This document shows positions 1-48,845 of a stretch of 64,000 bases of DNA, in pieces. The notes beneath the pieces were generated by a model. It did not search any database and was not told the origin of the DNA. It worked only from the letters and a program-made list of their open reading frames with translations. The stretch is from an uncultured Chitinophagaceae bacterium (GTDB lineage: Bacteria > Bacteroidota > Bacteroidia > Chitinophagales > Chitinophagaceae): NCBI GenBank assembly GCA_903895845.1, contig CAITVK010000098.1, positions 1-64,000 of the forward strand, in the 5' to 3' direction. Numbering within the stretch: position 1 is the first letter of the stretch; the number at the start of each line of letters is the position of its first letter. A program made the position numbers and the translations under genes.

Positions 1-119
1 ACTGCCGTTGAGTAAAGAACTAAAAGCTAAATATAGTACGTCAAGCTGAAACTAAAGCCTAATTATTAATCTACTGCCGAGTTTGTTCCGTCCCCCCTGC
101 TATCGTGAATACTGATGTT
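1..119 (-). repeat. attC-like site 0 (partial, type A)
   Basis: This is the right part of a cassette boundary palindrome, cut by the window edge. It is nearly identical to the right part of the sites ending at 1646 and 13778. GTT lies at 117-119 and is followed by GGCTG, which pairs with CAGCC before the AAC at 1459. The stop codon of the neighbouring gene (125-127) lies 5 bp beyond it. Confidence 0.8.
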
Positions 120-124
120 GGCTG

Positions 125-619
125 TCAGTCCTTTATTCGCTCGATGAATTTTGTAATGTCATATTGATGTAGAAGTCCCATATTCTTTTGGGAAACGTTC
201 ACTCCCCATTCAGGTTTACTTTTTTGTCCTTCTTTTTCATAATTTCTATCTTTCAATAATTCATTAGGTGATAACCAAGCATTTGAAGGGATAAAATAGA
301 TTGTCGGCATTTTATGATTGTCTAAAAGCACAAGTGCTAAATACAGATTATCTCTTAATTCATTCTTCCAAGTCTCTTTTGAAACATAAACATACCCTGT
401 ATTTGTGCGTATGGTTTTGACTTGAATATCTATATGCTTATTATTGTCTAATCGAAGGATAAAGTCAATACCCTTGTCGTCAACATCATTATAATATGTA
501 TCGAAGCCTGAAAGGGTAAGCCAAATCTTTACCCAATACTCACCAATTCTGCCAATTTGTAAATGGGATAGGTTGTCAAATGTGAAATTATCAAAACTTT
601 GTATCATTTTATTTTTCAT
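125..619 (-). CDS. DUF4365-like PD-(D/E)xK nuclease-fold protein
   Basis: The 164-residue protein has a pattern typical of restriction-endonuclease-like folds. A glutamate sits in an early helix (GEYW, E27), an aspartate follows in DDKGID (D52), and then comes IQVK (Q66, K68). DUF4365-type proteins share this order (E, GxD, QxK) and are often found in defence or mobile loci. Catalysis is inferred from the pattern only. The start overlaps the end of the upstream gene by 11 bp, so translation is probably coupled. It is the last gene of a three-gene cassette and its stop lies a few bases from site 0. The target is unknown; a role in DNA restriction is one possibility. Confidence 0.6.
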   Translation of the reverse strand: MKNKMIQSFDNFTFDNLSHLQIGRIGEYWVKIWLTLSGFDTYYNDVDDKGIDFILRLDNNKHIDIQVKTIRTNTGYVYVSKETWKNELRDNLYLALVLLDNHKMPTIYFIPSNAWLSPNELLKDRNYEKEGQKSKPEWGVNVSQKNMGLLHQYDITKFIERIKD

Positions 620-1424: not shown

Positions 1425-1452
1425 TTTTTATTTTTTATGCTACGTTAGGATT

Positions 1453-1650
1453 GCAGCCAACGAGCAGGTATTTGCGATGGCAGGGCAATAGTGTTCCGTC
1501 CGCCGACGACTGAAGCCCAATTGAAATACTACTGTTGAGTAAAGAACTAAAAGCCAAATATAGTACGTCAAGCTGGAACTAAAGCTAAATTATTATTCTA
1601 CTGACGAGTTTGTTCCGTCACCCCTGCTATCGTGAATACTGATGTTAGCC
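1453..1650 (-). repeat. attC-like site 1 (type A)
   Basis: AAC lies at 1459-1461 and GTT at 1644-1646 (188 bp). The arms AACGAGCAGGTATTTGCG and CGTGAATACTGATGTT pair, with two extra bases on the left arm. The outer flank GCAGCC matches site 0, and GTTAGCCA matches the left flank of site 2. Confidence 0.85.
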
Positions 1651-1654
1651 ATCG

Positions 1655-2347
1655 TTATATTGCAATTCCATTTTGACTAGCAAATGCTATTATGTCACTA
1701 GCTGGAACCCATAATGCAATTGCCATTCTTGTCGAGTTAGTATTTTCTCCTTGTGGTTTGTCATTAATAGAGGCTACATGCAAACCAAATACTTCCCCTG
1801 TTTCAAAAAAGCCAGGACAGCCACTTGAACCACCATACATCAGTGAGTCTGTCTCATAAAAGTCAAGAGATAGGTTAGTCGCTGGATTTAGACTACGTTG
1901 AAATGCTGAAATATTTGCTCCTTGGAAACGTTCAACTAAGTTATATGTATAACCATTGTTCGTGAATGTAACAGTTGCTAATGGAAAACCTAGAGAACCA
2001 ACAGACCTCCCAATTTCTGCTCTGTTTGGATGTAGTGTCAAACAATCAGCAGAGGACGGATTTGTAATTCTCAGTAAAGCAATATCTCTGACCTTATCTT
2101 CAGCTATCAATGTTGCCTGTGAAAAAGGCTGTCCAATATCGGGTGTTCTAATTACTTGAATTGAACTGTGTAATGGGTCATTATGTTTATTATTTTGATG
2201 AATTACATGTGCGGCAGTTACTATGATTTCTGGCGCAATCATAAAAGCTGTCCCATTGCCGTAATTTACTTGATTTACCCCTATTTGAGATAAACCTAAA
2301 ATCCCATAAATTGAATTTCTATTCTGTTTGCAAGATTGTCTAAACAT
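1655..2347 (-). CDS. Trypsin-like (V8-type) serine protease
   Basis: A 230-residue protein of the trypsin-like peptidase fold. The catalytic triad is visible: His47 in TAAHVIH, Asp88 in RDIALLRI, and Ser175 in GGSSGCP (GxSGxP). SLGFP precedes the serine region, as in V8/HtrA relatives. There is no PDZ domain, and the length fits a bare protease domain. No signal peptide is evident, so it may act in the cytoplasm, like the protease effectors found in some defence systems, but this is inference. The start ATG is about 24 bp from the AAC of site 2, and the stop lies 9 bp from the GTT of site 1. It is a classic single-gene cassette. Confidence 0.8.
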   Translation of the reverse strand: MFRQSCKQNRNSIYGILGLSQIGVNQVNYGNGTAFMIAPEIIVTAAHVIHQNNKHNDPLHSSIQVIRTPDIGQPFSQATLIAEDKVRDIALLRITNPSSADCLTLHPNRAEIGRSVGSLGFPLATVTFTNNGYTYNLVERFQGANISAFQRSLNPATNLSLDFYETDSLMYGGSSGCPGFFETGEVFGLHVASINDKPQGENTNSTRMAIALWVPASDIIAFASQNGIAI

Positions 2348-2366
2348 TATGATGTGTTTTAATGGT

Positions 2367-2569
2367 GGCTAACGAATGAGTGTTTGGGAAGGTGCTTGAC
2401 AAGAATGTTCGGTCTGCCGATGGACAATTGCTTAATTCTTGTTCAATTGCTCAATTCTTGCTCTACTGTCCCATAATGTCAGGTCACCCGAAACAAAAGC
2501 TTAAAGAAAGCAAAATTGCTGAATTTCTTCCGTCTGCAAGCACTTTCCTAAACACTTTTGTTGGCTGCC
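2367..2569 (-). repeat. attC-like site 2 (type B)
   Basis: AAC lies at 2371-2373 and GTT at 2560-2562 (192 bp). The arms AGTGTTTGGGAAGGTGCTTG and CAAGCACTTTCCTAAACACT pair almost throughout. The left arm carries two extra bases next to AAC. The outer flank TGGCTAAC matches GTTAGCCA of site 1. A plus-strand open frame across the site is a by-product of the palindrome. Confidence 0.85.
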
Positions 2570-2573
2570 GTTT

Positions 2574-3233
2574 TTATTCGATGTCACTGTTTAGTAAGTC
2601 CATAAATTCTATGTCGGTTATGTCCAAACTTTTAATAACCTCTGTCTGCTTTAAAATAGCATTTGCATAGTTCATAGCTGTTTCAAATTGTCCTTTTTTT
2701 ATTTCACTTGGGCTGTCAAAACTTGTGTCTGTCCAATTAACGTAAAAGCCTTTATTTTTTGTATCATTTGCACTTTTTAACCATTCAAAAAATGACAGTC
2801 TTTCTGTTTCTGGGATATTTATTTCACTGTAAGCCACGTTGAAAAAGCATCCCCATTCTTTAAATCTATTCTTCTCAATTGCCAAATGCTTTTCTGTCAA
2901 TTCTTGTCCTGTCACCTTATGAAAAATATAGTCCTGAAAGTCTGTAGCAAATTCTGTTGAAATTGATTGTTGAAATTCTTTTATTAAATTGTGTTTTTTA
3001 AGATGGTCTCTAAATATTGAATTTCGATTTGTAGGATTAACCTCCTTGTCTGCAAAAACTTTATCATCTGAAAAGTGAGTTAAAACAACTTGATATTTTA
3101 TTAACTCTTCAATTCCTAAAATTAAATGTGAAATTGCAAAACCAAATGAACAATTGTCTGCCAAAAGTTTTGCAGATTCAATGTGTAATAGTCCATTGTC
3201 AAATATCTTATTGTATTTATCTCTGTCTGTCAT
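2574..3233 (-). CDS. AbiV-like abortive infection protein
   Basis: A 219-residue, mainly helical protein that resembles the AbiV family. Near the N-terminus an A-x-L-L helix is followed by a second helix with GIEELIKYQ (E42, E43, K46), the EExxK signature of this HEPN-related fold. A downstream FRDHLKKH (D76, H77) matches the conserved DHK-type motif. AbiV proteins block phage protein synthesis in Lactococcus; that role is inferred here from family likeness. It is a single-gene cassette, and the stop codon is 12 bp from the GTT of site 2. The upstream boundary is the eroded site 3, so this cassette may no longer be excisable from that side. Confidence 0.65.
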   Translation of the reverse strand: MTDRDKYNKIFDNGLLHIESAKLLADNCSFGFAISHLILGIEELIKYQVVLTHFSDDKVFADKEVNPTNRNSIFRDHLKKHNLIKEFQQSISTEFATDFQDYIFHKVTGQELTEKHLAIEKNRFKEWGCFFNVAYSEINIPETERLSFFEWLKSANDTKNKGFYVNWTDTSFDSPSEIKKGQFETAMNYANAILKQTEVIKSLDITDIEFMDLLNSDIE

Positions 3234-3238
3234 AAAAT

Positions 3239-3399
3239 GGCTGCCATTGAATGAGTTTTTGTGAAGGGGCTTGACAAGAATGTTTCGTCTGCCGATGATA
3301 ATTGCTTAATAAATGCTCCATTGTTCCTTATTATTAGGTCTGACGAAACAATTGCTGAATTTATTCCGTCTGCTCCCATTTCTGATACTGAAGTGGTTA
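3239..3399 (-). repeat. Degenerate attC-like site 3 (type B remnant)
   Basis: Related to sites 2 and 4, but AAC has become ATT (GCCATTGAATGAG) and the right arm no longer matches. The core TTGACAAGAATG and the TTCCGTCTGC element remain. The right end near GGTTAC (3396) coincides with the stop codon of the next gene. The loss of AAC suggests an inactive junction. Confidence 0.6.
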
Positions 3400-3912: not shown

Positions 3913-3990
3913 AATTTAACTTTTTTTAGTTATGCTTACTCTGTTAAAAGATTTTCAGCTTACTCTTTATGCTTATTATCAACTGAAATG

Positions 3991-4195
3991 GCAGCCAACG
4001 AATGAGTGTTTGGGAAGGTGCTTGACAAGAATGTTCGGTCTGCCGATGTACAATTGCTTAATTCTTGTTCCACTGCTTAATTCTTGCTCTATTGTCTCAT
4101 AGTGTTACGTCTGCCGAAACTACTGCTAAAAGAAAGCAGAATTGCTGAATTTCTTCCGTCTGCAAGCACTTTCCTAAACACTTTTGTTATCGGCT
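3991..4195 (-). repeat. attC-like site 4 (type B)
   Basis: AAC lies at 3997-3999 and GTT at 4186-4188 (190 bp). The right outer flank is GTTATCGGC rather than GTTGGCTGC. The left flank of the next site is the exact complement (GCCGATAAC at 7021). This compensating change shows that the end bases belong to one cassette. Confidence 0.85.
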
Positions 4196-6947: not shown

Positions 6948-7020
6948 CTTTATTATTTAGTTTTTCAAAAAAAGCTACTTATATTGTCTAACCATTTTAT
7001 TTTTCCGAACTTTATGTATT

Positions 7021-7227
7021 GCCGATAACGAATGAGTGTTTGGGAAGGGGCTTGACAAGAATGTTCGGTCTGCCGATGACAATTGCTTAATTCTTGTTCC
7101 ACTGCTTAATTCTTATTCTATTGTTCCATAGTGTTAGGTCTGCCGAAACTATTGCCAAAAGAAAGCACTATTGCTGAATTTCTTCCGTCTGCAAGCACTT
7201 TCCTAAACACTTTTGTTGGCAGCCGCC
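7021..7227 (-). repeat. attC-like site 5 (type B)
   Basis: AAC lies at 7027-7029 and GTT at 7215-7217 (189 bp). The left flank GCCGATAAC pairs with GTTATCGGC of site 4. The right flank GTTGGCAGCCGCC pairs with GGTGGCTGCCAAC at 8896-8908 in 12 of 13 positions. Confidence 0.87.
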
Positions 7228-8880: not shown

Positions 8881-8893
8881 AATGAGGTAATTT

Positions 8894-9108
8894 TAGGTGG
8901 CTGCCAACGAATGAGTGTTTGGGAAGGTGCTTGACAAGAATGTTCGGTCTGCCGAATGACAATTGCTTAATTCTTGTTCCATTGCTCAATTCTTGCTCTA
9001 CTGTCCCATAATGTTAGGTCTGCCGAAACTACTGCTAAAAGAAAGCAGAATTGTTGAATTTATTCCGTCTGCAAGCACTTTACTAAACACTTTTGTTGGC
9101 TGCATACC
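8894..9108 (-). repeat. attC-like site 6 (type B)
   Basis: AAC lies at 8906-8908 and GTT at 9095-9097 (192 bp). The flank GTTGGCTGCATACC on the right is partly complementary to the left flank of site 7 (GGTTGCAGCTAAC). The arms match those of sites 2, 4 and 5. Confidence 0.85.
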
Positions 9109-13544: not shown

Positions 13545-13590
13545 GAGTTGTCTGTTTTAAACCTTGTGCAGTCTTCGCCTCGGTTGCAGC
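13545..13590 (-). promoter_or_regulatory. Conserved cassette 5' leader (copy 1)
   Basis: Minus-strand order from the site end: TTGCAACCGAGGCGAAG, then GGTTTAAAACAGAC. The same elements occur at 19259-19300. A possible TATATTTA -7-like box follows it. It may hold a cassette promoter or be part of the recombination site; the function is inferred. Confidence 0.4.
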
Positions 13591-13788
13591 TAACGATTGG
13601 TATTTGCGATGGCAGGGCAATAGACTTCCGTCCGCCGATGCCTGAAGCCCCATTGAAATACCGCTGTTGAGTAAAGAACTAAAAGCCAAATATAGTACGT
13701 CAAGCTGAAACTAAAGCTTAATTATTAAACTACTGCCGAGTTTGTTCCGTCCCCCCTGCTATCGTGAATACTGATGTTATGTGTAGCC
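13584..13788 (-). repeat. attC-like site 7 (type A)
   Basis: AAC lies at 13592-13594 and GTT at 13776-13778 (187 bp). The body is nearly identical to sites 0 and 1. The right flank GTTATGTGTAGCC differs from theirs and pairs with GGTTACACATAAC before site 8 in 12 of 13 positions. Confidence 0.87.
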
Positions 13789-13857: not shown

Positions 13858-16143
13858 CTATTTGCTAATCAGTAGCTTCTCATTGTAGCTGCCTGTTGCT
13901 GTGATTACTTTTATAACATAAAAACCATTTGTCAAGGGTTGGGTATTTAGTCTGTAAGAATTTGTACTACCACTAATGGATTGTAAAATAACAGTTTTGC
14001 CTGTAATGTCATAAACTGCAATAGTTGCTTTGTCCACCGTTTTACTGAAACTAACAGTCGCAAAATCTCTTGCAGGGTTAGGTATTATGGAAAAAGATTG
14101 TTTGTCGGCTAGGTTAACTGTCACCACTTTGCTATAAGTACTGCTGCCGTCTTTGTCAATACTTTGTAGGCGGTAATAGTTAATGCCATTTGAAGGTCTG
14201 TTATCCGTAAACTCATAACTGTTTGCACCTTTTCCTATTGCTGGGACGTTCCCAATATCTGTAAACGAAACACCGTCTGAACTGTGTTTGATTATAAAGT
14301 TTGTTGTATTAAGTTCTGTGGCTGTCTGCCAGTTGATTTTAACTAAAGAATTATTCACTTTATTAGCTTCAATATTAGAATACATAATTGGTAATGCACT
14401 ATCAGCAAAGGTTAATTCAAAACAATAAGGATTTTCCCAAGAATAGCCATCCGCTTGAGAATAAATATTTAAATAATAAGTTCCAGGGTTTAAACTTTTA
14501 ACCAATTTGCCTAAGTATCCTTTTCCATTACTATTGGAAAGTAAAATCCTTTGATTTGTTGCGGAGTCTGTAATTTTTATTGTGGCTTGTGAGGTTGGTA
14601 TATCGAAAAGATACACAGACAAACTGCCTGTTTTAGTTACACTGAATTTATAATAGTCACTATCAACTGAAGTTGGACTAACCGCATTTTTTGGTGTTAT
14701 ATGACCGAAGTAATGTTTGCTAAATTCTACAGGATATGCGAACTTTTTATTATCTGGCTCGTCTAGCCCAATTTCATTATAATAAGTTTGCTTAGGTAAA
14801 TCAATATGCCATGGATGAGCGGGTGAGCCTGAACCAGAGCAATAAAAAGTATCAGCATTGACTTGAGGAAGATAATTATTTAAGTCAGCGGATGTAAAAT
14901 TAACCACACCGTCACAGTCTGAACATAATGGGAAAATATAGGTATCATTTCCTATGACACAAGTATAAGCTAAATCTGTTGGAATTGTCTTGTAATTAAG
15001 TCCTCTTATATTGTTACCAATGATTCCATTACAATTGACATCTGCATTGAAATAATGTTCAAATAGACTATTATCCATGACCTGAAAACTTTCTATCCCA
15101 CCATATAAGTAAACACCACTGTCACCCGATATGTCATAAGTCCTTCTCAAATCACGTACAGCTTCAGACCTTTCATCGGCAGCATTAAATATACTTGTTA
15201 AATTAGCAGAGGTCGAGTTACTTCCACCATGAGGGGTGCCAGTAGTAAATAGTTTTGCAACATGATGTTCGCCGTCTGGTTGCCAATTGCCTTTATTTTG
15301 TAAATACTCTCTTGCTGCTAAACCACCCATACTATGACCAACCAATACTACTTTATCTCTACCTGTCACTTTAAGAACGTGTTCAATTGCTTTTTGCACT
15401 GCAACACCTTGTTTTACAGCAGCAGATTGATTACTTTGAATAGATGCGCCATTGTTATACTTATTCCCAAAGGTGTCTACATCAAAGTTGATTGTATAAA
15501 AATCCCCTGCAACAAGCTGTGTTGTATCTGTCCAATCTTTAAAATCAGTTGGCAAATAGGATGTACTAACATTATTATCTTGATTCAGACAAAAGTTTAA
15601 ATTACCGCCATAGCTATATCCAAAAAAGCCTTGTAAATCTCTTAAATATGGATACCATGTAGTATCGGTTCCACACAACCCATGTATCAATATAACTGGG
15701 TATGGTAAGTTCTGAACTGCTTTGAAACCATTCAAGATAGTAATTGGGTTTTGGCTATATGTATAATTATTTGAAGTATTAGATTCACTTATTTCGTTCC
15801 TATCGTTTGCTTGAACTAATATCTTCAAACTTCCAGCAGGAACACCGTATGAAAGGGGTAATATAAAATAATAGTTGCCCGATTCCGAATCAGAAGCGAG
15901 AGATTCTGTAGAAACATCTGCTAAGAAAATTGTATTTAAAGTCGAAGTATCAATTAAAGATATTCCTGCATGAGACACCCCTGCGATTGAGTTACCAATG
16001 TTCTTAATTCTAAAACTAAGTGAAATTCTCTGTCCTAACTCTAATGAGGTTTGCGTGTTTGTTACGTTAGAACAGATTAAGTCAGGCTGTGCAAAAATTT
16101 GTGTACAAGCCATTGTAAACAGAAGAGTAAATAGTCTTTTCAT
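13858..16143 (-). CDS. Secreted alpha/beta hydrolase with CARDB-like and T9SS domains
   Basis: A 761-residue protein. A signal peptide covers about 1-18. A CARDB-like beta domain follows (SFRIKNIGNS, SNTSNNYT). An alpha/beta hydrolase domain begins at YPVILIHGLCG and contains the nucleophile elbow VGHSMGGLAAREYL, as in lipases and PGAP1-like enzymes. A C-terminal pre-peptidase-like domain (FSVTKTGSLSVYLFD), a fibronectin-like segment and a type A T9SS domain (IPNPARDF, ending LLISK) complete it. It is probably a surface or secreted lipase or esterase; the substrate is unknown. It is the single gene of the cassette spanning about 13594-16283. Confidence 0.8.
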   Translation of the reverse strand: MKRLFTLLFTMACTQIFAQPDLICSNVTNTQTSLELGQRISLSFRIKNIGNSIAGVSHAGISLIDTSTLNTIFLADVSTESLASDSESGNYYFILPLSYGVPAGSLKILVQANDRNEISESNTSNNYTYSQNPITILNGFKAVQNLPYPVILIHGLCGTDTTWYPYLRDLQGFFGYSYGGNLNFCLNQDNNVSTSYLPTDFKDWTDTTQLVAGDFYTINFDVDTFGNKYNNGASIQSNQSAAVKQGVAVQKAIEHVLKVTGRDKVVLVGHSMGGLAAREYLQNKGNWQPDGEHHVAKLFTTGTPHGGSNSTSANLTSIFNAADERSEAVRDLRRTYDISGDSGVYLYGGIESFQVMDNSLFEHYFNADVNCNGIIGNNIRGLNYKTIPTDLAYTCVIGNDTYIFPLCSDCDGVVNFTSADLNNYLPQVNADTFYCSGSGSPAHPWHIDLPKQTYYNEIGLDEPDNKKFAYPVEFSKHYFGHITPKNAVSPTSVDSDYYKFSVTKTGSLSVYLFDIPTSQATIKITDSATNQRILLSNSNGKGYLGKLVKSLNPGTYYLNIYSQADGYSWENPYCFELTFADSALPIMYSNIEANKVNNSLVKINWQTATELNTTNFIIKHSSDGVSFTDIGNVPAIGKGANSYEFTDNRPSNGINYYRLQSIDKDGSSTYSKVVTVNLADKQSFSIIPNPARDFATVSFSKTVDKATIAVYDITGKTVILQSISGSTNSYRLNTQPLTNGFYVIKVITATGSYNEKLLISK

Positions 16144-16226: not shown

Positions 16227-16271
16227 TTTTACAATTAATTATTAAGAACGTACTTACGAGTGAGTGTTTTT

Positions 16272-16480
16272 GGTTACACATAACGGTTAGGTATTTGCGA
16301 TGGCAGGGCAAGAATCCTCGTCCGCTGATAACCAAAGCTCAATACTGTTCCAAAAGCCAAATATAAGAACTGCTGTTCAAAAGTGTTACGTCAGCCCCAA
16401 ACAGAAGCCAAAAGAAAGAACTGAAGTTGAGGTTTTCTCGTCGCCACTGCTATTGCAAATACTCCTGTTGGCTGCAGACC
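16272..16480 (-). repeat. attC-like site 8 (type A variant)
   Basis: AAC lies at 16282-16284 and GTT at 16467-16469 (188 bp). It begins GGTTAGGTATTTGCGATGGC, but its interior differs from sites 1 and 7. The right flank GTTGGCTGCAGACC pairs with GGTTTGCAGCCAAC before site 9. Confidence 0.85.
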
Positions 16481-16481
16481 A

Positions 16482-17714
16482 TTATTTGGTTTTTGCAAAT
16501 GCTTGTTGGGAAATTTTCCATGCGTCAGGATAAATATACTTTTCATTGATGCCTAATTTGGTAATTCTTTTTTTTACATGCCTTGCTAATTCCTTGTTTA
16601 TGTTGATGCACTTTGAAAATAATACTTTGTTGTTGTCTTCATTTGTCTTTGATTTCTCGAATGGAATATGTTCAATAGGTTTTGTCGGACTTGCGTTCCA
16701 TGTGAACACTCCATTTTGATTTACAATATTCATGCTTGTATTTAGATTGTATTTCAAATGCTCATCGGTTTTGTCATCTGAAAAGTAAAGCATTGGAGCT
16801 TTCACTAACTTTTCAATTTTAGTCATATAGGTCATTAGTTGTTTTCCATGCAAGAGGTAGAACATCTTGTCGATATGTTCGGGAGTAATTAATTTGTCCA
16901 TGAGTCCTTCAAAAACCCCGCTTTCTTTCACATGTTCTATAAATTCATTTTTAAGCTTCTCTTTCTGTTTTTTCAAGCCAATGTCAAAGATTTGTTGTAA
17001 CGAAGCTTTCTCAAAAAATTCTTCCTCTAAATAATAGACGCAAAAATATTTTTCTATTTCCCATTTTCCTTCTGGCTTTTTAAGGTTTTGTATTGCAAAA
17101 AATAGTGCATTCGGGAAACTATAAGTCCAATCTAGTAATGGAGTTGGGCAACCATAATGCTGTAAAAAACTTAATACTGCTAAATCATTTTCGGAGTCTA
17201 TCCCAATTTTGTTTAAATATTTTGACAAAATTTCTCCCTCTTGCAATTTTGCATTTTTTACAAGGGTCGATAGAAATTCTTCATAAGATGAATGCTTCTC
17301 GTAAAGTTTTGAAGTTATCCATTCCCTCTGCAATGAACTATACAATCGGTACTTCGCTTCATTTAAACCACGAAACAAAATATTTTTGCTGTCAATATAT
17401 TTTTCAAAAACTTCGTCAAATTCCTCTTTTGTTTCAATATTAGTTTGTGTAAAGAATATTGATTTTTGCAAAAGGGTTTCGTATTGTGAAAGATATGTGT
17501 CAGAATTAAATGGCTCCATGAGTTGAGTACCAACGTAAGCTAACATTGCAGCGTTTGCTATAGAATCAACCGTGGTTGGATTTACTTTCCCGTTTGGTAA
17601 TGATTTGACTTTTAATAATGATTTCAATAATTCTGGGAATACAATTTTTTCAATTCCCCCATTTTCAAGGTACTCATTGAATAGTTTTACTTTAAGGTCT
17701 AAATCTAGTTGCAT
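16482..17714 (-). CDS. FRG-domain protein
   Basis: A protein of 410 residues from the ATG at 17714. A longer TTG-start version would begin inside site 9. The FRG domain is visible from FRGLNEAKYRLYSSLQREW to LSFLQHYGCPTPLLDWT and NALFFAI, the conserved FRG, QH and DW signatures. FRG proteins are abundant in defence islands and prophages, but their biochemical role is not established. The N-terminal 110 residues and C-terminal 150 residues are helical and charged. It has no signal peptide. It forms a single-gene cassette between sites 8 and 9. Confidence 0.8.
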   Translation of the reverse strand: MQLDLDLKVKLFNEYLENGGIEKIVFPELLKSLLKVKSLPNGKVNPTTVDSIANAAMLAYVGTQLMEPFNSDTYLSQYETLLQKSIFFTQTNIETKEEFDEVFEKYIDSKNILFRGLNEAKYRLYSSLQREWITSKLYEKHSSYEEFLSTLVKNAKLQEGEILSKYLNKIGIDSENDLAVLSFLQHYGCPTPLLDWTYSFPNALFFAIQNLKKPEGKWEIEKYFCVYYLEEEFFEKASLQQIFDIGLKKQKEKLKNEFIEHVKESGVFEGLMDKLITPEHIDKMFYLLHGKQLMTYMTKIEKLVKAPMLYFSDDKTDEHLKYNLNTSMNIVNQNGVFTWNASPTKPIEHIPFEKSKTNEDNNKVLFSKCININKELARHVKKRITKLGINEKYIYPDAWKISQQAFAKTK

Positions 17715-17730
17715 AATTAGGAAGTTCGAA

Positions 17731-17945
17731 CGGTTTGCAGCCAACGAACAGGTATTGAGAATGTGGCTGGCAAGGTTGTTCCGTCCGCCGACGACTAAAG
17801 CTTAATACTTGTTACAAAAGCCAAATATAAGTACTGAAGCCCAATGTTGTTCGGTCACCCGAAACAAAAGCTTAAAGAAACCACTGAAGACGAGTTTGTT
17901 CCGTCCGCAGCCATATTTGCAATACTGATGTTGTGTGCATACCCG
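17731..17945 (-). repeat. attC-like site 9 (type A/B variant)
   Basis: AAC lies at 17743-17745 and GTT at 17930-17932 (190 bp). It starts like type A (AACGAACAGGTATTGAGAAT) and has its own interior. The right flank GTTGTGTGCATACCCG pairs with GGGTTGCACACAAC at 19292-19305. Confidence 0.83.
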
Positions 17946-18006: not shown

Positions 18007-18267
18007 CTATTTAGAATGCAACTCGTCCATTATTTGAGCAAATAATTTATGGTCTTTCATTTCTAATAATCGATACTCAAATTTATTTCCATCTTGGTTA
18101 ATGGTAATATCTACAATGCCCCCGCAAGCATTTATTTTATCAATATATGGATCCAGTTCCTTTTCAACTTCAATTTTGAATTTGTTTAATTCAACTTCAT
18201 TGACAGGTTTTGTTTTAGATGGGTCTATTATATATCCGTAATGTTCATTGAAAACTACTTTACTCAT
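18007..18267 (-). CDS. Small hypothetical cassette protein
   Basis: An 86-residue soluble, charged protein (VVFNEHYGYIIDPSKTKP, later GGIVDITINQDGNKFEYRLL). It is probably an alpha/beta mix, with no membrane segment and no domain recognised. It is the last gene of a three-gene cassette, downstream of a 56-residue membrane protein. The 3' side carries the GTCCACC tail that is also seen after sites 6 and 7. Confidence 0.55.
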   Translation of the reverse strand: MSKVVFNEHYGYIIDPSKTKPVNEVELNKFKIEVEKELDPYIDKINACGGIVDITINQDGNKFEYRLLEMKDHKLFAQIMDELHSK

Positions 18268-18314
18268 AAAAAGTATTTAGGCATTAAATATAAAAGTATT
18301 CAAAATGCTCTGGG

Positions 18315-18485
18315 TTAATCCCGTTGCTGCTTTATTATAGTGACAAGTGCAGCTAATGGGAAACCAAGCAATACGCCTATAAATAATATAGGTAAAGGCT
18401 CTACCTTCTTTGGGTCACCATAAACCATTATGATTACACTGCATATCGTGTTCCAAATTAATATGTACCAAAATAAGTGCGGCAT
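18315..18485 (-). CDS. Small two-helix membrane protein (56 aa)
   Basis: A short open frame from the ATG at 18485 to the TAA at 18315. It starts MPHLFWYILIWNTICSV, then has a polar turn with GDPKKVEP. A second hydrophobic segment follows (LPILFIGVLLGFPLAALVTI) and the end is basic (KQQRD). Two membrane helices with a basic tail are typical of small membrane proteins. It starts 10 bp after the stop of the gene at 18496-19125 and fills a gap that would otherwise be empty, in the same orientation. The function is unknown. Confidence 0.6.
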   Translation of the reverse strand: MPHLFWYILIWNTICSVIIMVYGDPKKVEPLPILFIGVLLGFPLAALVTIIKQQRD

Positions 18486-18495
18486 AGAATATCTT

Positions 18496-19125
18496 TTATT
18501 GCCATTTAAGATTTGCTGTATTAAATTCCGACTGCATCATTCCTTCATCATAATAATTTGCCTCAAAAACAACATGCTTTGATTTTTTCAATTTTTGAAT
18601 AAATAAAGCTGGGTCGTCAATAAATATAAGTCCAACAGTCCCTGATGAAGGTTCGCTATATTCAAATGATACTGGTTTTGCCTCGTCAAATTTCACTCTT
18701 ACTACATTGTTGTCAATATCGCCACTTACAAATTGTCCCTTATTTACTGTTATATAAACCTCATTTCCCTTTTTATGAAATCCGTGCCTTAATGTTATAG
18801 TTAGCGAACTACCACCATTGTAGGGAAACTTAAAGTCCAACTTGTCGGTTGCTGTACATTCAGCATATTTAATTACGGTATTTTCCATTTTATCTGAATT
18901 GTCCTCTGAATAAGTCCAATTGTCAGAATCTGTATTTACAGCATGGTTAGTACTATCTATATTAATCTTTGATGTGTCAGTGGTTGTATTTACAGAAGGC
19001 TTTGTATCGGTGGCAAAATGCCCTATTAACCAAAATACAAATAATATGCTGCCTATTATTATCAGCATCCTTTTATTGAATTTCTTTCTTTTTGCCATTT
19101 CGGCTTCGGTCAATACCTTTTTCAT
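18496..19125 (-). CDS. Single-pass membrane protein, hypothetical
   Basis: A 209-residue protein with a basic cytoplasmic start, one membrane segment at about 20-38 (MLIIIGSILFVFWLIGHF), and a Thr/Ser/Asp-rich linker. The C-terminal beta domain (about 75-205) includes FPYNGGSSLTITLRHG and FIDDPALFIQKLKKSKHVV; the latter resembles segments of phage-type proteins of unknown function that are measured against membrane stress. No family is assigned. It is the first gene of the first cassette next to the recombinase, and would be the most recently acquired if insertion occurs at the head of the array. Confidence 0.6.
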   Translation of the reverse strand: MKKVLTEAEMAKRKKFNKRMLIIIGSILFVFWLIGHFATDTKPSVNTTTDTSKINIDSTNHAVNTDSDNWTYSEDNSDKMENTVIKYAECTATDKLDFKFPYNGGSSLTITLRHGFHKKGNEVYITVNKGQFVSGDIDNNVVRVKFDEAKPVSFEYSEPSSGTVGLIFIDDPALFIQKLKKSKHVVFEANYYDEGMMQSEFNTANLKWQ

Positions 19126-19258
19126 GTTGTTGTTTATAATTTTAATAAATACTTTAAGCTAATTGAGTACTCAAAGACTATTCGTCAATCTTGTATTAAT
19201 ATTATTACTTGCTTTAGAATAATTACGGCATTCTAATTTGTGTCATATATAATGCGAG

Positions 19259-19300
19259 CCGTCTGTTTTAAACCTCGCACGTTCATCGCACGGGTTGCAC
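19259..19300 (-). promoter_or_regulatory. Conserved cassette 5' leader (copy 2)
   Basis: It shares TTGCA, a GGGTTGC/CGGTTGC stretch and GGTTTAAAACAGAC with the copy at 13545-13590. It lies between the cassette boundary at 19303 and the gene starting at 19125. Confidence 0.4.
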
Positions 19301-19302
19301 AC

Positions 19303-19412
19303 AACTCTTAAATATGAGAAGGTTTTATCCTGTTCTAAACTTTCGCTTTTTTTTGAAACCCTTTCCTGTATAGGATTCCATCCAATTGTTTTTGTTATCT
19401 AAAACCTTCGCA
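19303..19412 (-). other. Putative primary attachment site (attI-like)
   Basis: The boundary of the first cassette is AAC at 19303-19305, preceded by GCACAC, which pairs with GTTGTGTGC of site 9. Beyond it lies a segment not related to the other sites. It is bounded by the perfect inverted repeat GAAGGTTTTA (19318-19327) / TAAAACCTTC (19400-19409) and contains GTTATC at 19394. It sits between the array and the recombinase stop codon, where a primary insertion site is expected for an integrase transcribed in the same direction as its cassettes. Confidence 0.55.
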
Positions 19413-19431
19413 AATACAAATCTAAGGGAAT

Positions 19432-20673
19432 TTATATTTCTAAATTCAAACTATCCAAAGGGCTTAATATTTTCAATAAATCTTTGTTGCTCGTGTGCAA
19501 ATATCGCATGGTGGTTTTGATGTCGTTGTGCCCCATTATCTTTTGTATAATCGTTACATCAGTGCCTCTATCTACTAAATGTGTAGCAAAACTGTGGCGC
19601 AACGCATGAATGCTTCCGGGCTTCAAAATTCCTGCTCTTTCTTTTGCGGCAGTTAGCACCAATTGTAAGCTTCTTGGGCTATACATTTCCTCAGGATTCT
19701 GCCCCATAAACAAATACCCTTCTTTCTTTGGCTTGTATTGTCTGCAATATTCCCTCAACATCACCAGCAATACAGGACTTAATCCCACCATTCTGTCTTT
19801 TTTCCCTTTGCCTTGCTCTATTTTCATACACATTCGCTTGCTATCAATGTTGTATGTTTTCATTGCCACTACTTCGCTCACCCGCAATCCACTACTATAG
19901 GCAAGCATCAGCATTGTTTTGTGTTTTATGTTTACTGTACCTTTTAAAATGGCTACTATCTCGTCCTGATTAAAAAAGTTAGGCAACAAATATGGTTTTT
20001 TAGGTCTTGGTATCTCCCAAAAGAATTTTTCTTTATACAACACCTGCTCATAATAAAACTTTAGTGCATTCATACGGCTGTGTATTGTATTCTCGCTAAG
20101 TTTTAAACTAGTATGGCAATATTGTAGATAATCTTTCACTCTGTCTGTGCTAAGGTCTTTTGCTGCTGTATTACCCAATGTTTGTAGATATAACCTAAAT
20201 TCGGATGTATAAGTATTAATGGTGTTTGGACTGTATGCTTTGAGTACAAGTGCCTGACTAAACTTGGATAGGGCAGCAGCGTTTTCATCGCTAAGATTAT
20301 AGGATATTGGTTTTTCTTTTTTAGTGGGGATTGAAATAGGCTGCACCCGTAGAGGCGGATTACAATCTGTCTTGAGATGCGCTCGCGGATCATTTTTAGA
20401 CGCATTAATATGCGTCTCTACGGGGTTTTGGATGTTCTGTTTAAAATAATCCCGCATTGCCTTGCCATCCAATATTGCTGACCCTTTCAGCGCTATCCTC
20501 AATTTATTACAAGCCTCTTTGGTACAATCCATATACCAGCACTTCTTGGTTCTACTCCATTTTGCGGATACTGCTTTTTGTAAAACAGTATTTAGTTTAA
20601 TATCTTTTTCAAAGTAGATACCTACTACCTGAATCTCGTTATGTACTAGCGGCTTAATTGTAACTGTGTTCAT
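19432..20673 (-). CDS. Tyrosine recombinase, likely array integrase (XerC/D-like, not classical IntI)
   Basis: A 413-residue protein. Residues 1-80 form an extra N-terminal domain (KWSRTKKCWYMDC) seen in some Bacteroidota integrases. A SAM-like core-binding domain spans about 130-215 and the catalytic domain about 235-400. The active-site residues are present: R264 (SGLRVSE), K289-292 region, H356 and R359 (HALRH), H382 (GHND) and Y391 (MRYLH). R264 to R359 is 95 residues, as in XerC/D, so it appears to lack the extra segment before HxxR that marks IntI. The C-terminal SPLDSL is reminiscent of IntI ends. Residues 83-110 are encoded by a REP-like element. It is placed at the head of the cassette array and probably recombines its sites. 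Confidence 0.85.
   Translation of the reverse strand: MNTVTIKPLVHNEIQVVGIYFEKDIKLNTVLQKAVSAKWSRTKKCWYMDCTKEACNKLRIALKGSAILDGKAMRDYFKQNIQNPVETHINASKNDPRAHLKTDCNPPLRVQPISIPTKKEKPISYNLSDENAAALSKFSQALVLKAYSPNTINTYTSEFRLYLQTLGNTAAKDLSTDRVKDYLQYCHTSLKLSENTIHSRMNALKFYYEQVLYKEKFFWEIPRPKKPYLLPNFFNQDEIVAILKGTVNIKHKTMLMLAYSSGLRVSEVVAMKTYNIDSKRMCMKIEQGKGKKDRMVGLSPVLLVMLREYCRQYKPKKEGYLFMGQNPEEMYSPRSLQLVLTAAKERAGILKPGSIHALRHSFATHLVDRGTDVTIIQKIMGHNDIKTTMRYLHTSNKDLLKILSPLDSLNLEI
20345..20425. repeat. REP-like palindromic insertion inside recombinase gene
   Basis: Outer ends CCCGTAGAGGCG and CGTCTCTACGGGG are inverted. They flank a perfect hairpin AGACGCAT / ATGCGTCT with loop TAAT (20398-20417). The sequence is of the widespread GTAGAGACGC type. 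It is about 81 bp (27 codons), in frame, in the linker between the N-terminal and core-binding domains. Confidence 0.65.
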
Positions 20674-20869: not shown

Positions 20870-21214
20870 TTATCCATTTTCAATCGCTTTGTCAAGCATT
20901 ATCAGCTGTTCGCCAATTATTTCGGTCACATACTTTTTCAATCCATCCTTGTCCTCATAATGCCTTGTTTTCAATTTCCCTTCAATATATACATAGCTGC
21001 CTTTGTGCAGGTACTTCTGTGCCAGTTCTGCCAGTCCTCGCCATAGCACGATGCTGTGCCAATCGGTGTCGGTTATCATTTCGCCCGCTTTGTTGCGATG
21101 GCTTTCTGTTGTTGCCAACGAAAACTTGGCTACAGGCACATTGCCCTCCAATACTTGCACCTCGGGGTCTTTGCCGAGGTTGCCAATGAGTGTTACTTTA
21201 TTGAGTCCTTTCAT
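20870..21214 (-). CDS. ssb: Single-stranded DNA-binding protein
   Basis: A protein of 114 residues from the ATG at 21214 (two residues longer from 21220). The OB-fold is typical: NKVTLIGNLGKDPEV at the start, FSLATTES, DWHSIVLWRGLAELAQKYL and GSYVYIEGKLKTR. It binds single-stranded DNA in replication and repair. It is short: the acidic disordered C-terminal tail with the DDDIPF-type tip is absent, so partner recruitment may differ from the main SSB and it may be a secondary copy. Its position beside the recombinase is notable, because integron sites recombine as single strands, but a functional link is only inferred. Confidence 0.92.
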   Translation of the reverse strand: MKGLNKVTLIGNLGKDPEVQVLEGNVPVAKFSLATTESHRNKAGEMITDTDWHSIVLWRGLAELAQKYLHKGSYVYIEGKLKTRHYEDKDGLKKYVTEIIGEQLIMLDKAIENG

Positions 21215-21500
21215 AATCATTCAAAGGTCGGGCTTACTGATTTGGTATTGGGTTTTATAATTTCAAATATAAACTTCCCCCGTCTCGGTTCTTGTCTCAC
21301 GAACCAATTAAAAAAAAGGTTCGTAATACACTAACCGAGGCTGGGTAGAACCAATAACTGCAAGCAGCCTCCAACAAGGAAGGGTTCGCTTTGAGCGAAC
21401 CCTTCCTTAATAATCTCCCCTCCCTAACCTCATTCACACCTCTTTTATATCCACCCAAACACCACATTTTTCCCCTCAAAAAACACAAAATGAAAATAAT

Positions 21501-21770
21501 AGGTGTCTTGTAACACGTTACAAATGGCATAAATTCTCTAACAGGTGTCTTGTAGCGCATTACAAATGGCATAAATTTTCTAACAGGTGTCTTGTAACAC
21601 GTTACAAATGGCATAAATTTTCTAACGGGTATCTTGTAACACGTTACGAATGGCATAAATTTTCTAACAGGTGTCTTGTAACGCGTTACAAGTGGCATAA
21701 ATTTTCTAACAGGTGTGTTATTTTCTTGAAACGAGTGACCTAAATTACCTAACAAGTGTGTTGTTTTCTG
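21501..21770. repeat. 42-bp tandem array with palindromic cores
   Basis: Five clear 42-bp units (21501, 21543, 21585, 21627 and 21669) are followed by one or two decayed ones. Each unit holds an inverted repeat of the TTGTAAC/GTTACAA type; in the fifth it is a perfect 18-bp palindrome, CTTGTAACGCGTTACAAG (21674-21691). The array is upstream of ssb. Open frames across it (minus strand 21297-21779) follow from the unit being a multiple of three and are not taken as coding. Confidence 0.85.
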
Positions 21771-36459: not shown

Positions 36460-37083
36460 TATTATTCCGTTTTACAACACATTACTAAGATGCCATTAAA
36501 AAAAAGGGTAGTGATTTAAAATGTATGCTACTTTTCAAAGAGGGTTACTGTGATTTTTTTGTCTTAAAATATCTATCAACTCCATTTCCAAGGTCTTGGA
36601 TGTGATAAAAGAGGTCTTGGAAACTGTATCCAAGACCTTGGATGCGGTAAAAGAGTTCTCGGAAACGACATCCAAGACCTTGGATGTGATAAAAGAGGTC
36701 TTGGAAACTGTATCCAAGACCTTGGATGCGGTAAAAGAGGTCTTGGAAATTACATCTAAGACCTTGGATGCGACATTAAAGGTCTTAGATTTCGAAAATA
36801 GTTGAATGTAAAGCAGCATACATTCTAAATAACTACCAAAAAAAGAAATGAAACTCTATTTTGCTAGTCATCAGATGACTCACTTAGCAATGGTTTGAAG
36901 ATTATGGAAATTTTTTGATGTTTCGGTCAATAAATTATAACATACGTAAGCTACAATAATTGATTGTATTTGTAAGAAGTTTGCCCAATTGGTCCTGCCT
37001 TAGCATTATCTGGACAGACATAAAGAGAAATATTATACTTTTTTTACCCAACCCCGTCAATACTTCCCCCCTAAATTTGCATC
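36460..37083. other. Intergenic region with 42-bp array
   Basis: A 624-bp region. It contains the tandem array at 36587-36796. The rest, including 36797-37083, shows no gene or recognisable site other than a TAAATTTG at 37072. Confidence 0.5.
36587..36796. repeat. 42-bp tandem array with inverted halves
   Basis: Five units (36587, 36629, 36671, 36713, 36755). Each 42-bp unit is two 21-bp halves with TCCAAGACC in one and its complement GGTCTTGGA in the other. Units 1 and 3 are nearly identical. Both strands stay open: the plus frame 36596-36805 would encode heptads such as VIKEVLE and TVSKTLD, like a coiled coil. No ribosome site supports translation, so it is listed as a repeat. Confidence 0.85.
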
Positions 37084-48471: not shown

Positions 48472-48547
48472 GTAATCTGAGGGGTATTGAAATTAACAAG
48501 CAATCCATTTTTGGCTTGTTTGTTTCAATATTTTGCTTACTAAACCC

Positions 48548-48799
48548 TTCTGAGTGCGTACTAAAGTGTTCTGAGTGCATACTAAACCCTTCTGAGTGCT
48601 TACAAAGGTGTTCTGAGTGCTTACTAACCCCCTCTGAGTGCTTACAAGAGCGTTCTGAGTGCTTACTAAACCCTTCTGAGTGCTTACTAAAGCGTTCTGA
48701 GTGCTTACAAAGACGTTCTGAGTGCTTACAAAGGCGTTCTGAGTGCTTACTAAAGCGTTCTGAGTGTGTACTAAGGCGTTCTGAGTGTGTACTGAACAA
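48548..48799. repeat. 21-bp tandem array (12 units)
   Basis: Twelve consecutive units of exactly 21 bp begin TTCTGAGTGC (last two TTCTGAGTGT), followed by a variable TACTAAAGCG, TACAAAGGCG or TACTAAACCC end. Both strands are open across it because 21 is divisible by three; the minus frame repeats KHSER-like heptads. No start or ribosome site supports a protein. Confidence 0.9.
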
Positions 48800-48845
48800 T
48801 AGTATCGATAGTATCCAAAGAAGTGTGTAAATCCTAATGAAACAA

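Follow-up and report, generated by a model that had tools for sequence, protein, structure and literature searches.

The closest described systems are integrons, class 1 and sedentary chromosomal alike, in which an IntI integrase gene lies next to attI and a same-strand cassette array, with cassettes of about 0.9 kb, crossover at G|TT, the two ends of a cassette complementary to each other, sites that are imperfect palindromes favouring one strand, and defence-like cargo. The I2 segment of integron integrases has been described as accommodating extrahelical bases and as absent from other proteins, with CTXphi/XerCD as the only similar reaction (PMC4792948). The IntI insertion has been used as a defining trait of integron integrases (PMC9668308) or treated as defining or essential (PMC8138268), and a single complete integron, in Salinibacter, has been reported for Bacteroidetes proper (PMC9024848). 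Here, we describe a locus in a 64,000-nucleotide stretch of DNA (the window) from an uncultured Chitinophagaceae bacterium that shares these features of layout, boundaries, sites and cargo. In contrast to integrons, however, its proposed integrase has no 39-residue IntI segment, carries an N-terminal domain and lies outside the IntI clade; it also shares the strand of the cassettes and points at them. Sites of this type further differ in their core (GTTRKSYGCA), in complementarity that extends to about 15 nt, in a fixed mispair at position +11 and in a length of about 205 or about 110 bp. Judged from sequence, the system works like an integron, and by integrase and core it is not an IntI family member. 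We consider it quite likely that it is a functional integron with a non-IntI integrase, in which the neighbouring recombinase would join cassettes to attI via folded bottom-strand sites. No description of this recombinase lineage was found in the open-access literature, to which the search was confined.

The proposed array integrase is a tyrosine recombinase of 413 amino acids encoded on the minus strand (19432..20673), with a core-binding domain at about residues 130-215 and a catalytic domain at 234-396. Its catalytic set is complete (R264, H356, R359, H382 and Y391). An earlier note on this DNA had put the span from R264 to HxxR at about 95 residues, XerC/D-like in length; in one alignment it measured 92 (R264 to H356), next to 96 for E. 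coli XerD in the same alignment, 96 and 92 for the two separate Xer-type proteins that the window genome also encodes, and 89-93 across all 77 aligned relatives. In contrast, plasmid IntI1 and all 18 Bacteroidota IntIs that were correctly translated have a spacing of 131, in a comparison that omits one mistranslated IntI row and the truncated VchIntIA. This difference indicates that a segment of 39 residues, a little larger than the roughly 30 previously suggested, is absent from the window recombinase. Alignment to the TIGR02249 model of IntI likewise falls into two pieces, with model positions 180-239 unmatched and the break where the spacing falls short, in agreement with the view that the IntI-specific insertion is missing. 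The protein thus shows the XerC/XerD trait, no insertion between the catalytic R and HxxR, and has no IntI-specific additional domain.

Likeness to XerC/D in spacing did not extend to affiliation. The best NCBIfam model for the window recombinase is the XerA/integron integrase NF040815 (194 bits, cut-off 220), followed by TIGR02249 (168.9 bits, cut-off 265) and the XerC and XerD equivalogs (159 bits each, cut-offs 335 and 330), so that XerA/IntI models outrank XerC/XerD and none reaches its cut-off. In a tree built on core columns, excluding the insertion and the N-terminal domain, IntI (support 98) and the recombinase clade (96) are separate, and together they split from Xer (97). As this tree was quick, with SH-aLRT support only and few Xer rows, the grouping beside IntI is provisional. 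By models and tree, the clade is neither within IntI nor within XerC/D; the description as XerC/D-like therefore stands for spacing, while phylogeny places the clade outside Xer and next to IntI. XerC/XerD share with the window recombinase the R-to-H spacing, the catalytic residues and the absence of an insertion, and, as in the CTXphi reaction, can use a folded phage site. Unlike them, it forms a separate clade with its own attI and cassette array and is probably not a dimer-resolution enzyme, the two Xer-type proteins of the genome being located elsewhere. Archaeal XerA shares the best-scoring model, but the window recombinase stays under the cut-off of that model and adds an N-terminal domain and an array.

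Alternatively, the neighbouring recombinase may be there by coincidence and the array run by an IntI that is encoded elsewhere in the genome but cryptic, or that acts in trans from mobile DNA. Other Bacteroidota families often have true IntIs over the curated cut-off (105 of 395 sampled genomes), and the array logic is the same. However, no IntI over the cut-off was found in the window genome, which is 99% complete, so that the second, IntI-type integrase considered in the earlier note did not appear; nor was one found in the seven other genomes rechecked with it, or in Chitinophagaceae genomes among those listed from the 395-genome sample. As the core GTTRKSYGCA also differs from GTTRRRY and the sites are about 205 bp long, we regard a hidden IntI as very improbable. 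The frequency of true IntIs in the sample (loci L097-L116) is far higher than IntegronFinder-based papers suggest, and some families (f33) hold both IntI and the window recombinase clade.

Between minus-strand genes of the window lie ten attC-like sites of about 205 bp, all on the minus strand, one of them shortened and one cut by the contig end. The first in the array, site 10, is at 17733..17939, followed by sites 9 (16268..16477), 8 (13582..13785), 7 (8892..9104), 6 (7014..7225), 5 (3987..4195), the shortened and degenerate site 4 (3235..3390), 3 (2357..2570), 2 (1445..1652) and the cut site 1 (4..125). The cassette genes, on the same strand, include two small unknown genes in the first cassette (18007..19125), a FRG-domain protein (16482..17744; PADLOC candidate defence PDC-S15), an alpha/beta hydrolase (PGAP1/LCAT-like) with a secretion tail (13858..16143), a member of the AbiV (HEPN) abortive-infection family (2574..3233) and a trypsin-like protease (1655..2347). 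Across the window and related loci, 86 of 87 cassette ORFs are on the site strand and the median cassette length is 921 bp. Within the core GTTRKSYGCA, GTT/AAC is conserved and followed by R K S Y, which departs from the integron consensus GTTRRRY/RYYYAAC.

Sites end in AAC and GTT, and the 9-10 bp beyond are specific to each cassette. One cassette, for example, starts with GTTATCGGC and ends with GCCGATAAC, another starts with GTTATGTGTA and ends with TACACATAAC, and the 5' end of the first cassette (GTTGTGTGCA) exactly matches the R'' of its site. Quantification over 88 cassettes from the window and related loci showed that the two ends of one cassette match at 6.19/8 positions, compared with 3.33/8 within one site and 3.41/8 for other pairs, and that matching spans about 9 nt beyond G|TT. 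Such traces are left when circles insert at G|TT, as in integrons, which accounts for the cassette-specific ends. The array is genuine, its signal lying far above what chance would give. The repeats might instead be MITE- or REP-like palindromes dispersed in the genome, some of which fell between genes by chance, and there are some solitary and partial copies across the genome; this reading, to which we give hardly any weight, has no place for the matched ends, the attI core, the single orientation or the recombinase linkage, and we rejected a MITE origin because the cassette-specific ends contradict it.

Downstream of the recombinase gene lies an attI-like site (19303..19420, minus strand) with its crossover between G19305 and T19304, read on the minus strand as ..ATATTTAAGAG|TTGTGTGCA, and an inverted repeat, AAGGTTTTA/TAAAACCTT. 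In 30 of 32 loci, one exact copy only of the 9-nt core of the first cassette was present between the recombinase and the first site, whereas core/locus pairs that do not belong together matched in 22 of 870 cases. In most of these loci the core follows the recombinase at a distance of 100-150 bp, and its GTT is preceded by a conserved CGtATATTTAaG. Colinearity of the window with its close relatives L081 and L079 extends over the recombinase and ends at G|TT, where each continues into unrelated cassettes; the pair L156/L169 behaves likewise. Divergence at exactly this point, read by comparison of the loci, records past insertions at attI. Loci of this kind show three integron traits, namely cassettes in the same orientation (86/87), attI beside the integrase with insertion at the core (30/32) and complementary cassette ends. 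Position of attI also bears on the suggestion that host XerC/XerD move the array via folded sites, as for CTXphi, while the neighbouring recombinase does something else. Insertion-less Xer proteins can use a folded phage site (PMC4792948) and the genome encodes two Xer-type proteins, but attI lies directly behind the window recombinase gene, this linkage recurs across genera, and the Xer gene on contig C125 is about 17 kb from the nearest site, making a role of host Xer improbable.

The earlier note had argued that, if this recombinase runs the array, single-strand or palindrome recognition must be solved in a way other than by the IntI segment. In line with this, the segment is absent and the sites show both covariation and a strand bias. 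Stem arms stay paired while their sequence changes (for example, GGCGA/TCGCC and GCTGC/GCAGC), and 42 compensatory cells were counted in the named stem, against 17.6 when shuffled and 5-15 when slid. RNAalifold did not return any pairs on a MAFFT alignment of the sites, as the register was disrupted by gaps; the covariance model was consequently sequence-only, and pairs were counted on the named stem instead. Mispairs are asymmetric: A.C on the top strand, which is G.T on the bottom strand, prevails in 29 loci and the reverse in 0, and related sites are not independent, so that relatedness weakens the P values but not the direction of this bias. At outer-stem position +11, about 95% of cassettes have a mispair, A/C on the top strand and G.T on the bottom strand, and the bottom-strand hairpin was the more stable one in 69 of 78 circle forms. 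These patterns suggest folded single-strand substrates, with the bottom strand as the likely one.

Taken alone, complementary stem arms would also be compatible with palindromes recognized as duplex DNA, on which the window recombinase would carry out an ordinary double exchange of the Xer/Cre type and no hairpin would form. A dimer could bind each arm of the long inverted repeats, and an enzyme with no IntI segment would fit such a reaction; yet arm sequences vary between sites with pairing kept, and the mispairs, including the one at +11, favour the bottom-strand hairpin. The choice between the two readings depends only on the mispair bias and the variation in arm sequence, and as duplex recognition does not account for the bias, these point to recognition of a single bottom strand and leave the double-stranded reaction unlikely. 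Many sites, in loci L149, L156, L158, L169 and others, have a compact form with core ends about 120 nt apart, in which the arms are retained and the middle is lost; the central 90 nt thus seem to be dispensable.

Linkage between recombinase and sites was surveyed across Bacteroidota in loci picked by recombinase similarity only, with sites then found by an iterated site profile. Where at least 3 kb of downstream sequence was available, 29 of 30 main-clade loci have sites 3' of the gene and 26 have two or more. The isolate Ginsengibacter hankyongi (L073) provides a named case; 19 further main-clade contigs end within 3 kb, as the window contig does at position 1. All 75 loci together gave 176 downstream sites on the recombinase strand, 2 on the opposite strand and 3 upstream. 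In distant Bacteroidota members found by their N-terminal domain, all 34 site matches were on the recombinase strand, and many have matching cassette ends and attI cores. Relatives are thus found next to arrays, contrary to the other refuting case named in the earlier note, although not every member is: in one subclade, 13 of 16 loci that are long enough have no array within at least 3 kb. Conversely, two genomes have arrays (29 sites in G034, 14 in G022) and no clade recombinase at E<=1e-25 anywhere. These recombinase-less arrays and solo recombinases resemble CALIN and In0 in IntegronFinder terms, but sites and recombinase are not of the families on which those terms were defined. Together with scattered solitary sites, they count against the neighbouring recombinase running the array. 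Comparison between loci establishes that cassettes are units bounded at G|TT, where attI lies and that insertion has occurred there, as well as the covarying stem, the strand-biased mispairs and the recombinase linkage; from this linkage we infer that the window recombinase is most probably the array catalyst, and the site substrate would, by the same kind of reasoning, be single-stranded.

Residues 1-80 of the recombinase (20434..20673, minus strand) form the extra N-terminal domain that had been noted before, with the DUF5710/HARP-like motif W-[ST]-x-[TS]-x-x-x-W-[YH]. In AlphaFold2 this domain folds confidently on its own (pLDDT 89, topology b-b-a-b-b-a-b-a), whereas the full-length model is mediocre (pLDDT 70, pTM 0.44). 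It is present in 75 of 81 relatives and in 0 IntI or Xer controls; in two array-linked recombinases the frame is shorter, and in one of these cases a trace of the domain lies upstream. Bacteroidota commonly have the domain, and each of the 20 proteins from this phylum that were retrieved with it and read is a recombinase of the same clade. DUF5710 matched it in 9 of 14 members (best 2.9e-5) and HARP weakly in 1; Foldseek with the domain model placed HARP (4o66) and XPB (5tnu) in the top ten, at non-significant scores (E>=0.26), and a PDB sequence search with the domain profile gave no match. As HARP binds fork or single/double-strand junctions, a hairpin-reading role of the domain is an attractive guess.

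In the preferred model of a working integron, the recombinase would join circular cassettes to attI, about 130 bp downstream of its stop codon, with crossover at G|TT. The cassette site would fold as a bottom-strand hairpin whose arms are recognized by shape more than by sequence, resolution would be of the replication type, and the N-terminal domain may perform some of the functions of the IntI segment. We are evenly divided on whether this amounts to a phylum-wide second integron lineage with folded-single-strand recombination in the absence of the IntI segment, which would either predate the segment or have had it replaced by the DUF5710/HARP-like domain. Such a sister lineage with integron-type arrays would make the origin of integrons and the needs of single-strand recognition directly testable. 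The same arrangement recurs across the phylum, and a close relative of the window recombinase in 129 of 396 Chitinophagaceae genomes, together with sites in other Bacteroidota, suggests that a large reservoir of cassettes may escape standard finders.

Several further observations were made around these loci. The arrays at L228 and L229 (G034) and L230 (G022) have a tidy gene-site-gene order. The window genome has other small arrays, as well as solitary and half sites, on contigs C93, C67, C125 and C96, and at about 15 single loci; the C96 sites are short (about 130 bp) and have no middle. On a plasmid of Hymenobacter volaticus (L183), related recombinase copies are split into two frames and followed by a site-like match, possibly a mobile form. 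An SSB gene (20870-21220) lies directly upstream of the window recombinase and was rejected as part of the system, as this position of SSB is not kept outside the genus. Six 42-bp tandem repeats (21455-21761), located between SSB and the genes that follow, hold the small palindrome TTGTAACACGTTACAA. Tandem repeats of in-frame length (42 and 21 bp) at 36587-36796 and 48492-48827 are probably repetitive coding sequence, and the 5' ends of two cassettes (13545-13588 and 19256-19299) share a 44-bp sequence (75% identity) that could be a promoter or a cassette end common to both.
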